Virus record (IMG/VR): IMGVR_UViG_3300028786_000002
Span: 1-44,055 of that record
Strand: one strand, 5' to 3'
DNA: 44,055 nt
From: a virus
Shown: positions 40,915 through 44,055 of the stretch, in pieces
Layout: each line of letters begins with the position of its first letter
Position numbering within the stretch: the stretch's first letter is position 1
Program-made: the position numbers and the translations under genes
Notes under the pieces: generated by a model
What the model saw: only the letters and a program-made list of their open reading frames with translations
The model's database searches: none
Told to the model about the DNA's origin: nothing

Positions 40915-41733
40915 TCAGAGCGCTTTAGCGGCGTGGATGTCGTACCACACCGTATCAATCATCCCGCTGTATAAAACCGCCTCCCAATCGTGCATCAGCT
41001 CGTCCAGGTTGCGCCAACCGTCCTTGTGCTCCATCGGTGTAGGGCCTGAGCTGTCCACCTTGTAGAGCCCGGTAGCGACTCCCGCGTGCGTTCCTTCTTT
41101 GCTCGACTTCGTGCGCTTCAGCATGCCGAGAATAGCCGGATGACGACGCAGCCACAGCCGTAGCCACTGACGCGATGACCACTTGGTATGCGCGAGCGTG
41201 CCGGGCTTTGGGATGATGACCGGCTGCCAGGTGTCCTGGCGGATGAGGTTGAACCGCGTGTAGCCGATGCTCTGCAGGTGGGCGATTAGATTAGCCGCAC
41301 CACGACCGGCCTCGAAGCTCAGATACTTCGGCGCTGTCTCGCGAGTGAAGGACATGACGGCAATATCATCTGCGCCCTCGATGTCGATCTTCACGAACTC
41401 GCCGACGCCGTACTCGGCTATCACTGAGTCCAAGCGGCGGAAGGGAATCTGGATCTCATCGGCGTGATAGCCATTGCGAGACGCCATGGTCTTATCAAAG
41501 CTGTTCCAGATCGCGCTTTCCCGGCAGAGGTAGAAGGGGAGGGTGCCGGCTGTGTTCCCTATCGCAACACCAAGAACAACGCACTTACCTAATGCGATCT
41601 CCGCTGAGAATCGAGCCTTGAGCTTTTCCACGAGATTCGGCGCTGCCTCGATGCAGATCGTCCTATACCCCTCCCGCATGTAGTGCTCCGTGTCATCCCC
41701 GTTGTGACCGCCAAGGTCATAAGCCAACTTCAT
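40915..41733 (-). CDS. FkbM-family SAM-dependent methyltransferase
   Basis: A 272-residue enzyme. The N-terminal SAM site is AYDLGGHNGDDTEHY, CIEAAPNLVEKL is the acidic strand that binds the ribose, and VKIDIEGADDIAV is the FkbM hallmark. The C-terminal 100 residues are basic and specific to this protein. FkbM enzymes methylate hydroxyls, often of sugars. At a prophage end it may methylate a surface glycan and block re-infection. GGGAG six bases before 41733 is better placed than for the ATG at 41739. Confidence 0.85.
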   Translation of the reverse strand: MKLAYDLGGHNGDDTEHYMREGYRTICIEAAPNLVEKLKARFSAEIALGKCVVLGVAIGNTAGTLPFYLCRESAIWNSFDKTMASRNGYHADEIQIPFRRLDSVIAEYGVGEFVKIDIEGADDIAVMSFTRETAPKYLSFEAGRGAANLIAHLQSIGYTRFNLIRQDTWQPVIIPKPGTLAHTKWSSRQWLRLWLRRHPAILGMLKRTKSSKEGTHAGVATGLYKVDSSGPTPMEHKDGWRNLDELMHDWEAVLYSGMIDTVWYDIHAAKAL

Positions 41734-41853
41734 ATCCATCTCCCTGTTGTGTTTTTGAATCGTACCTGCCGCCTAATTGGCGTGCAGACTTCCCGCAGTG
41801 ATGCGCGTCACAGTTTCGATTTGCTGCGCTGAACGATGTAAGAGAAATCGACG

Positions 41854-42093
41854 CTACTCAGTCGGCGCCTCAGTTTCTGCAGGGCGCTCCTCAAAGTCTT
41901 CGCAATCCTCGGCGCTCTCCATCGCTGCCTGCAAGTCGGCTTGCGTGAATTCCAGGTCTAGCCGCGCTTCCCAGTGTCCCTTCAGGCATGCCATTCCCGG
42001 CGGGACCGCTGGTTCATACGTGAGTTCCGACCACGAGTGCGCGTCCTTTCCTGGGTCATAGTCCAGATGAATGCAGCCGATGCAGTACTTCAT
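41854..42093 (-). CDS. Small Cys-containing protein of the right-arm operon
   Basis: A 79-residue protein. KYCIGCIHLDYDPGKDAHSW is a recognisable phage pattern with a Cys pair, and the rest is acidic (ESAEDCEDFEERPAETEAP). It is the last gene of the small-gene operon. The function is unknown. The next 120 bp, up to the methyltransferase, have no gene. Confidence 0.68.
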   Translation of the reverse strand: MKYCIGCIHLDYDPGKDAHSWSELTYEPAVPPGMACLKGHWEARLDLEFTQADLQAAMESAEDCEDFEERPAETEAPTE

Positions 42094-42314
42094 TGTTGCT
42101 CGCACACAGTCAGAGCGGCTCTAATGCGGGATCTACGCTGCGGCAGTCCTTCGAACAGATTGCAGCGGCTCGCCTTGTAGCACCAGCGCATGCACTTCGC
42201 GCATTGAACCTGCCGCGTCTCGCCTTTGGCGTTGTCTCGCGTTCCATACGGACGACTCCACGCCCGGAAGTCTCGTGCGTCCGTACATTCAATCGGTGTC
42301 TTAAATTCACTCAT
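42090..42314 (-). CDS. Small zinc-knuckle-like protein
   Basis: A 74-residue protein with VQCAKCMRWCYKASRC, a Cys cluster probably binding zinc, followed by a basic tail. ATGA junctions on both sides. It is like the small Cys proteins of the leftward early operon. Confidence 0.66.
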   Translation of the reverse strand: MSEFKTPIECTDARDFRAWSRPYGTRDNAKGETRQVQCAKCMRWCYKASRCNLFEGLPQRRSRIRAALTVCEQQ

Positions 42315-42526
42315 TCGTCCGCCATCCGCAACAGCTTGAGCTTCGACCGTTCCAGCAGCCACAGAGTATCGCCGCCATCAGCGTACGAGCTGGCGAAGTA
42401 CTCGTTGCCGTCCTTGTCGTAACCCATGATGACGACGCCTTCGAGTTTGCCAGCGGCAGCCTCAAGGATTCGATCCGCCGGCAGGTCCAGCTTCGTAACG
42501 CATCCCAGGTTCACAACCTCACCCAT
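42311..42526 (-). CDS. Conserved small phage protein
   Basis: A 71-residue protein. The pattern GEVVNLGCVTKLDLPADRIL, then VVIMGYDKDGNEYFASSYAD and DTLWLLERSKLKLL, belongs to a small family common in proteobacterial phages, of unknown function. GAGAAG precedes the ATG at 42526. Confidence 0.78.
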   Translation of the reverse strand: MGEVVNLGCVTKLDLPADRILEAAAGKLEGVVIMGYDKDGNEYFASSYADGGDTLWLLERSKLKLLRMADE

Positions 42527-42665
42527 GGTCTTCTCGTGTGTTGTGCGAGTGACGTTTCTCTGCCTCGCGTAGGCCGTCCGCGAGACAACAGAAAATCTCA
42601 CTGGCACCCCAAGCGCTTGCGATAAGAATTGCCACCACCAATCCAATCAAGCTCCAGATCCACAT
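42519..42665 (-). CDS. 48-residue membrane peptide
   Basis: One hydrophobic helix at the N-terminus (WIWSLIGLVVAILIASAWGA) and a charged, His-containing cytoplasmic tail. GGAG five bases before the ATG supports the start at 42665. It may be an exclusion-type membrane peptide, but nothing specific is visible. Confidence 0.62.
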   Translation of the reverse strand: MWIWSLIGLVVAILIASAWGASEIFCCLADGLREAEKRHSHNTREDHG

Positions 42666-42667
42666 AG

Positions 42668-42994
42668 CTACTCCGCTCGCTCCTGAGGAGCGAGACGCTT
42701 GACGTCGATGGTGGCCAGCAGCTCGCGCAGCCGCTCCACGTCCTCGGCAAACCGGAAGCACATCAGCGCACCGGTCCGCTTGTCACAGAGGACGATGCCA
42801 CCGTCTGAGGTGATCAACGAGTACTCGCGCGGTGTGTGCTTCTCTACGACGTTCAGCATTCTGTTTCTCCATTGCTCAAATCCGGGAAGATCCCCAACCG
42901 ATATGTCGGTTGCTTTTCTCTGCCCAAACGACGGGTCGTACTCGATGCGACCGACTCGCATACCACTTCCATAATCCTGGTCACCGGCTGACAT
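42668..42994 (-). CDS. Hypothetical protein of the right-arm operon
   Basis: A 108-residue mixed alpha/beta protein (VEKHTPREYSLITSDGGIVL, RFAEDVERLRELLATIDVKR). GGAGAAG precedes the ATG. The function is unknown. Confidence 0.7.
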   Translation of the reverse strand: MSAGDQDYGSGMRVGRIEYDPSFGQRKATDISVGDLPGFEQWRNRMLNVVEKHTPREYSLITSDGGIVLCDKRTGALMCFRFAEDVERLRELLATIDVKRLAPQERAE

Positions 42995-43118
42995 GGTCTT
43001 CTCCGTTCAGAAGAGCGCTACATTGCCCAAGAGACGCAAGGCCGGGCTGACCGGCCGTGGCATTTGAATCCGGGTGACCTTCCGGTAGTAAGCACCGCTC
43101 GTGCTCAGCTTGCGTCAT
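42981..43118 (-). CDS. 45-residue hypothetical protein
   Basis: A short frame starting 3 bp after the HTH gene's stop and overlapping the next gene by 14 bp. It contains HERCLLPEGHPDSN, which resembles a CLLPEGH motif in small phage proteins. The start is inferred from position and the ribosome site is weak. Confidence 0.45.
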   Translation of the reverse strand: MTQAEHERCLLPEGHPDSNATAGQPGLASLGQCSALLNGEDHVSR

Positions 43119-43120
43119 AG

Positions 43121-43342
43121 TCAATCCAGGCCTAGGCATTGATCGCGATGCTCGTCGTCGTGATCGATGAAACACGACACAGCTACCTGCACGACACGCG
43201 GGATCTTCAGCTCGCCCGACACGTACCGGCGCATGGTGCGTTCGTCGATATCTAGCATCCCAGCCATCTCTCGCTGCGAGATACCGGACGCACCTGGGGT
43301 CAAGAGTTTCTTCATTTCGGCTGCTGTGATCAGGTTCTTCAT
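43121..43342 (-). CDS. Small HTH regulator of the right-arm operon
   Basis: A 73-residue protein with a helix-turn-helix (ISQREMAGMLDIDERTMRRY) close to small phage XRE-type regulators. It heads the operon that runs down to 41854. Two 17-bp operator-like repeats lie 15 and 41 bp before its start, so it probably represses itself and the operon. Confidence 0.78.
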   Translation of the reverse strand: MKNLITAAEMKKLLTPGASGISQREMAGMLDIDERTMRRYVSGELKIPRVVQVAVSCFIDHDDEHRDQCLGLD

Positions 43343-43356
43343 GGCTCACCTCGCTA

Positions 43357-43373
43357 TAGGGCCTAATGTCCTA
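43357..43373. promoter_or_regulatory. Right-arm operator 1
   Basis: TAGGGCCTAATGTCCTA, a 17-bp near-palindrome (5 of 6 arm bases match), just before the HTH gene. It shares the TAGGGC-5-GYCCTA consensus with 43383-43399. Confidence 0.7.
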
Positions 43374-43382
43374 TATGCGAGG

Positions 43383-43399
43383 TAGGGCGTCAAGCCCTA
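43383..43399. promoter_or_regulatory. Right-arm operator 2
   Basis: TAGGGCGTCAAGCCCTA, a 17-bp perfect palindrome (apart from its centre), 26 bp from operator 1. A minus-strand TTGACG -35 box (43393-43388) lies within it, so binding should block the operon promoter. The matching -10 box is weak. Confidence 0.75.
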
Positions 43400-43441
43400 T
43401 GCTCAAGGAATACCTCAAGACCGCAACAGCGGCGTTCCCAT

Positions 43442-43455
43442 ACCGCAATTGCGGT
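43442..43455. repeat. 14-bp perfect palindrome
   Basis: ACCGCAATTGCGGT. Operator-like in size, but it matches neither set of 17-bp operators in the genome. Related GCGG/CCGC steps recur nearby. Confidence 0.6.
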
Positions 43456-43469
43456 GCCCTGTGGGCGAT

Positions 43470-43497
43470 TTCGGTTTAGAGCAAACCGAATTCGGTT
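43470..43497. repeat. Inverted repeat with TTCGGTT units
   Basis: TTCGGTTT (43470-43477) and AAACCGAA (43483-43490) are perfect arms. A third unit TTCGGTT follows directly (43491-43497), making ACCGAATTCGGT a second palindrome. It lies just upstream of the -10 box at 43511. Confidence 0.7.
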
Positions 43498-43510
43498 ACC
43501 GCGGTTCATA

Positions 43511-43625: not shown

Positions 43626-43666
<41 letters not shown>

Positions 43667-43708
43667 TGTTCCCGAGCTGAGAATACACTAGATTTACCGG
43701 CAAATCCC

Positions 43709-44055
43709 TCACTTTCCATTCTTCCCTGTTCCGTTTTTTGTCCGCCGATTGTCCGCGTACTCGGCATAGTCCTGCGGGTTGATGTGCCCGTAACGATCAA
43801 CCATCCGCACGTCTGACCAGCCTCCAAGTTCCTTGATCGCTTGGTCTGGTGTGCCGGCGAGCTTATGCCACGCTGCCCACGTATGCCGCAGGTCGTGGAC
43901 GCGAAACCCAGGGACCCCAGCCCTTGAGGTTGCCTTCTTCCAGCACGTCTTGATGGACCCAATAGGCGCCCTGCCGCGCTGGTCTGTGAACACGTATTCC
44001 TTGTGCCGCCCTTCCTGCTGTCGCAGCACTTCGATGGCTTCGGCAGGCAGAGGGA
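43709..44055 (-). CDS. int: Tyrosine integrase, C-terminal catalytic part (continues at base 1 side)
   Basis: The 3' part of the integrase whose start is at 798-800. It holds the rest of the catalytic domain: His278 and Arg281 in VHDLRHTW, Trp304 at the His/Trp position in LGGWSD, and the nucleophile Tyr313 in DRYGHINP. With Arg191 from the other part, the active site is complete. The last 20 residues are basic. Bases 43929-44055 repeat 1-127, so they count once in the joined gene. Confidence 0.95.
   Translation of the reverse strand, partial: PLPAEAIEVLRQQEGRHKEYVFTDQRGRAPIGSIKTCWKKATSRAGVPGFRVHDLRHTWAAWHKLAGTPDQAIKELGGWSDVRMVDRYGHINPQDYAEYADNRRTKNGTGKNGK
43929..44055. repeat. Direct terminal overlap, right copy
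   Basis: Identical to 1-127, marking closure of a circular sequence. It should be removed once when the genome is joined. Confidence 0.95.

Follow-up and report, generated by a model that had tools for sequence, protein, structure and literature searches.

The window, that is, the whole 44,055-nt stretch of DNA analysed, is a complete circular phage genome, the first and last 127 bases of which are identical (terminal repeat). The integrase gene (int) is located on the minus strand, spans the ends of the record and has its stop at 43709. Beyond attP, on the same strand as int, lies an operon headed by a helix–turn–helix (HTH) gene. It ends facing the late genes, in convergent orientation, and is situated downstream of PL-int in the circular form, where it continues the leftward direction of PL-int. 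The features considered below are the following:

43627–43667, plus strand: attP core situated between the operon promoter and int; it corresponds to a tRNA-Thr(CGU) gene, 5′ half only, and is conserved at the equivalent position behind the related integrase genes of L026 and L027
43522–43563, unstranded: conserved attP arm GTGTGCC...GTACGGCACAC...GGCACAA, putative integrase arm-type sites, spaced identically in L026 and L027
43383–43399, minus strand: operator O1, TAGGGCTTGACGCCCTA on this strand, an exact palindrome with the −35 hexamer TTGACG (43393–43388) at its centre
43357–43373, minus strand: operator O2, TAGGACATTAGGCCCTA on this strand, exact, containing the probable −10 box GACATT (43370–43365)
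43121–43342, minus strand: hth, 73-aa Aca1-like HTH protein, putative autorepressor, assigned by phmmer, profile, Foldseek and relatives
42981–43118, minus strand: possible 45-aa ORF (MTQAEHERCLLPEGHP...), an open frame only, with its ATG 2 nt past the hth stop
42668–42994, minus strand: g2, 108-aa orphan with the RBS GGAGAAGACC-ATG
42519–42665, minus strand: g3, 48-aa protein with a hydrophobic N-terminal segment
42311–42526, minus strand: g4, 71-aa member of PHROG 11040, a widespread phage family of unknown function
42090–42314, minus strand: g5, 74-aa Cys-rich basic protein (pI 9.5), possible zinc ribbon
41854–42093, minus strand: g6, 79-aa orphan with Cys residues and a strongly acidic composition (net charge about −14)
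40915–41739, minus strand: FkbM-family methyltransferase, 274 aa, closing the operon after a 114-nt gap and in convergent orientation to the late (lysis) genes
10648, 10670, 11173, and 11197: main immunity operators TTAACG-N7-CGTTAA around the cI-like repressor gene

The hth gene, preceded by the leader GCGAGGTGAGCC-ATG, is followed by the possible 45-aa ORF, by g2–g6 with overlapping or abutting ends and, after the gap, by FkbM. The 45-aa ORF has a CLLPEGH motif and is possibly coupled translationally to hth. An earlier, sequence-only reading described a minus-strand operon of seven small genes headed by the HTH gene; the leading position of hth and the co-orientation of the genes agreed with this, while the count is seven to eight with the 45-aa ORF, and FkbM is neither small nor contiguous with the others. 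The base composition of the operon is that of the phage. Searches in Pfam and PHROGs gave no convincing family match for four of the five small cargo proteins; only g4 (phrog_11040, E = 5.7e−26, 22 viral relatives) and FkbM had one. As single queries in viral contigs, g2 and g6 found no match, PADLOC returned none for the cargo, and no known Acr was detected by Pfam, PHROGs, NCBIfam or PDB structure matches. The FkbM domain scored above the curated cut-offs (PF05050, 33.4 bits against 22.7; TIGR01444, 57 bits against 37.7), which bears out the methyltransferase proposed earlier for the far end of the operon. A CRP-like box, TGTGACGCGCATCACT (41797–41812, minus strand), was considered in the gap before FkbM and rejected, as it is not above chance for this genome.

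Both 17-bp operator sequences, TAGGGCCTAATGTCCTA (43357–43373) and TAGGGCGTCAAGCCCTA (43383–43399), are exact, and the minus-strand order of the promoter region is TAGGGC-TTGACG-CCCTA, CCTCGCATA, TAGGACATTAGGCCCTA, TAGCGAGGTGAGCC and ATG. The −35 hexamer and the putative −10 box are separated by 17 nt, and the latter is poor, matching at three of six positions. A comparable pair, defined as 6-5-6 palindromes with arms at least 11/12 identical and 17–47 nt apart, appeared in one of 200 first-order Markov copies of the genome. When a weight matrix was trained without the window, O2 ranked first and O1 second genome-wide (21.5 and 17.0 bits), and the next site reached 8.2 bits; thus, the two operators noticed before hth are also the two best sites in the genome. 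Their sequence (TAGGNC-N5-GNCCTA) differs from that of the main cI/cro operators, as had been claimed. An Aca autorepressor is defined in part by one or two inverted repeats of similar sequence on the core promoter of its operon (PMC9410906), and such repeats cover that of the hth operon.

The nearest solved relative of the HTH protein by sequence, profile and fold is Aca1. With phmmer, the best match of the window protein in the PDB was Aca1 (7c0g, E = 0.0048), and a profile built from 20 family members retrieved Aca1 at E = 3.6e−9, while the next unrelated chain scored 5e−4. Foldseek runs with two HTH models placed Aca1 chains at all the first ranks with weak E-values (0.03–0.1), which are usual for a 60-residue fold. 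Like Aca1, which is the autorepressor of an anti-CRISPR operon, the window HTH is a small single-domain protein (73 aa). As a single query in viral contigs it gave one distant match only; it is 44–53% identical to the regulators of L053, L070, L071, and L047. A tblastn search of 50,697 phages with the L053 homologue matched 99 records, 95 of which were Pseudomonas phages, and in the one record inspected, JBD30, the match was gp36, that is, Aca1, beside AcrF1. The AcrF1–Aca1 promoter of JBD30 carries TAGGCACAATGTGCCTA and GGCACACTGTGCC, 25 bp apart, the first of which sits in the promoter spacer with the −10 box TAATCT, a geometry found also in L068; this promoter DNA has been printed as the Aca1 IR (PMC9410881). 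The window operators and the Aca1 site have the outer frame TAGG-N9-CCTA in common, while the inner bases differ, and TAGGCACAATGTGCCTA itself is not the operator sequence of the window. The family operator matrix scored the Aca1 site at 4.2 bits, a value reached by 107 of 200 shuffles and so not above chance; consequently, only the outer TAGG/CCTA frame is regarded as shared, and identical specificity is not claimed.

The pairing of such operators with an HTH gene was then followed in other phages. A scan for two TAGGRC-N5-GYCCTA sites across 2.9 million viral contigs yielded five of them, and loosening of the pattern to TAGGNC-N5-GNCCTA yielded 43 contigs with paired operators; the strict pattern was absent from 398 genomes of one phylum. 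All open frames were searched with an HMM seeded by the window HTH, JBD30 Aca1 and one Bradyrhizobium-phage protein, which were picked by protein similarity alone to avoid circularity. A family member (E < 1e−4) was found in 22 of the 43 contigs and in none of 27 control loci, while the other 21 contigs (fragments, other proteins and tandem repeats such as L031) gave no HTH match at this threshold. After removal of duplicates, the operators lay upstream of the HTH gene on the same strand in 20/20 cases, and the distance was at most 850 bp in 15 of these, where random placement expects 2.4 and never reached this number in 20000 trials. This recurrence in at least 20 distinct phage contigs supports the self-regulation proposed by the sequence-only reading. 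The aligned family promoters have operator 1 over the −35 box and operator 2 over the spacer and −10 box. The CTTGACG-centred operator recurs in L041, L047, L053, L064, L070, and L071, thus also in the four closest relatives named above, and L070 has the same 26-bp spacing as well. In most of these loci, the promoter and the HTH gene are separated by a small gene, which is another orphan in each case; in the window, L034 and L040, HTH is first. In L047, L064, L070, and L071, the block likewise runs up against opposite-strand genes that resemble late genes. Several paired TAGGNC promoters per contig, most of them before small genes, were observed in L036, L060, L045, L049, and L042, which makes these contigs candidates for the regulon of a related regulator. 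In L062 (1258–1391), six tandem, closely spaced TAGG[AG]C-A[AG]AATG-ACCTA sites, with no HTH found nearby, look like an iteron or centromere array.

The surroundings of attP were compared with L026 and L027, the two nearest integrase/attP relatives, whose integrases are 67–71% identical to that of the window; the attP core and the flanking arm elements are conserved 3′ of both integrases. The segment 43509–43563, which lies at an equal distance from attP in all three, contains GTGTGCC...GGCACAC repeats, possibly arm sites of the integrase, together with a hexamer resembling TATAAT (TACAAT, TAGAAT in the others), which may be a promoter source for the tRNA-Thr, the 5′ half of which the phage would replace. 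Three more palindromic elements were seen between the operon promoter and attP: ACCGCAACAGCGG (43420–43432), ACCGCAATTGCGGT (43442–43455), and AACCGAATTCGGTT (43483–43497). ARAGORN and Rfam detected no complete tRNA or known RNA in the window, consistent with a half tRNA at attP. In L028 (10001–11110, Thiorhodococcus minor), a 42% identical integrase gene ends just before an intact tRNA-Thr(CGT); the target is the same, yet the intact tRNA stands on the int side. An integrase-guided genome scan for an integrated relative returned just two distant matches, one of them adjacent to an intact tRNA-Thr(CGT), and no attL/attR was obtained. By the logic of attP recombination, the 3′ half of the host tRNA would join the HTH side of attP after integration, and the unit would become the prophage end beside the restored tRNA. 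The earlier description of the unit as the prophage end next to the tRNA therefore holds in that it adjoins attP, between attP and the late genes; the record itself is a circular phage genome, in which the prophage position is reached only through the predicted integration. Exchange of contents among related prophages, suggested earlier as a check, receives weak support, as L026 has nothing and L027 has other genes at this place, but both share only the integrase–attP module with the window, so that such exchange between close relatives is not claimed.

Starting from the observed operators, the HTH gene, their recurrent pairing in other phages and the kinship to Aca1, we consider it quite probable that the unit is an autonomous early operon under an Aca1-like autorepressor, with an early burst and low expression afterward. 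Upon phage entry, when the repressor is absent, the TTGACG promoter would fire strongly, and the HTH protein and the small proteins would be made. The HTH protein would then dimerise, occupy both 17-bp operators, which overlie the −35 box and the putative −10 box, and hold the promoter at a low level in lysis as well as in lysogeny. As integration at attP would separate the operon from PL, it would need a promoter of its own. That HTH switches off its own operon is very probable; binding, repression, time course and expression in the lysogen are inferred, and the anatomy, the same as in Aca operons, argues for the early burst followed by self-repression. Ten Aca families repress their own promoters by binding repeats over the promoter; transcription of acr genes is reported to be strong directly after infection and, when high, to harm later phage genes (PMC9410906). 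The cargo most likely has accessory early functions such as counter-defence, to which FkbM possibly adds surface modification. Because of the kinship of the regulator to Aca1, it is a fair hypothesis that the genes behind HTH help the phage against bacterial defences, and they are candidates for this role.

In a stricter form, the unit would be a true anti-CRISPR or wider anti-defence operon, in which one or more of g2–g6 inhibits a host defence and HTH is an Aca; we regard this as possible, if on balance unlikely. The regulator is Aca1-like, the cargo proteins are small, mostly orphan and in one case strongly acidic, and the gene before HTH in the relatives is a different orphan each time, as in acr–aca loci; aca-guided searches have also found Acrs together with neighbouring anti-restriction genes (PMC7648647). 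However, acr precedes aca, HTH being the second gene (PMC6739104), whereas HTH is first in the window, the cargo shows no known Acr or defence-related match, and only 15% of 2599 Aca-like homologues are near known Acrs (PMC9410906). Furthermore, g4 is a widespread phage protein unlinked to the HTH family regulator, and the apparent control of several promoters by related regulators in other phages speaks against the acr–aca label.

Lysogenic conversion, in which FkbM expressed from the prophage would methylate a surface glycan and exclude other phages, the small genes being passengers, is likewise a doubtful possibility. In its favour are the solid FkbM domain, the attP-adjacent place, which resembles that of P22 gtrABC, and the base composition of FkbM, which equals that of the phage and thus indicates a settled phage gene. 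On the other hand, the 114-nt gap, with its chance-level CRP-like box, leaves the promoter of FkbM open, no glycan genes are nearby, and FkbM as a query found no relative in viral contigs or among named phages; the putative TerL also had no match among the latter. An improbable variant is that HTH acts in trans on several early promoters as a second phage repressor rather than as a local autorepressor, as suggested by the two to six paired-operator promoters each of L036, L060, L045, and L049, with a family HTH in L036 and L045; the window has a single pair, after which the scores drop to 8.2 bits. A toxin–antitoxin pair with HTH as the antitoxin is very improbable, since the HTH-first order and the weak matches to antitoxin HTH models (MqsA, Xre) are set against the lack of a toxin family among the following genes and the far better fit of Aca1 to HTH.

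What is new here is the paired TAGGNC-N5-GNCCTA operators in 43 viral contigs, 22 of which contain an HTH family member. The small size of anti-defence genes and their lack of shared sequence make them hard to find, and aca genes have been a main handle for them so far. The operator signature offers a second, DNA-level handle on Aca1-like operons, HTH-first and multi-promoter layouts among them, in environmental phages that are unrelated, and yields a small set of orphan genes for testing (g2–g6 and the partner genes of L041, L047, L053, L064, L070, and L071). Related operators before several small genes (L036, L060) suggest that this control system is used more generally. With rather less than even confidence, we propose that temperate phages have a much wider control system, distinct from cI, of which Aca1 represents one branch; in it, small HTH autorepressors with paired TAGGNC-N5-GNCCTA promoters would drive interchangeable early-gene cassettes, sometimes several per genome. 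If so, the operator pair would be a searchable marker for counter-defence genes still to be discovered in places without any known Acr.

Among known systems, the autoregulated HTH antitoxins and C proteins (MqsA, HigA, C.BclI) are also small HTH proteins whose own promoters are covered by paired palindromes, but the window has no following toxin or restriction enzyme, and these proteins match the HTH less well in sequence and fold than Aca1 does. The lambda b region and P22 gtrABC, the latter being phase-variable, are accessory regions that separate attP from the late genes and can be expressed from the prophage. The window unit is at the same place, but neither of those regions is known to have an HTH autorepressor heading an operon. 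Compared with acrIF1–aca1 of JBD30, HTH is first instead of last in the window, the operon is longer and contains no known Acr, it lies beside attP rather than among head genes, and the operator core is TAGGNC-N5-GNCCTA instead of TAGGCACAATGTGCCTA. Nevertheless, the two systems are alike in the fold and sequence of the HTH protein (profile E = 4e−9), in the small variable partner genes, and in the two similar palindromes about 25 bp apart over the promoter within a TAGG-N9-CCTA outer frame.
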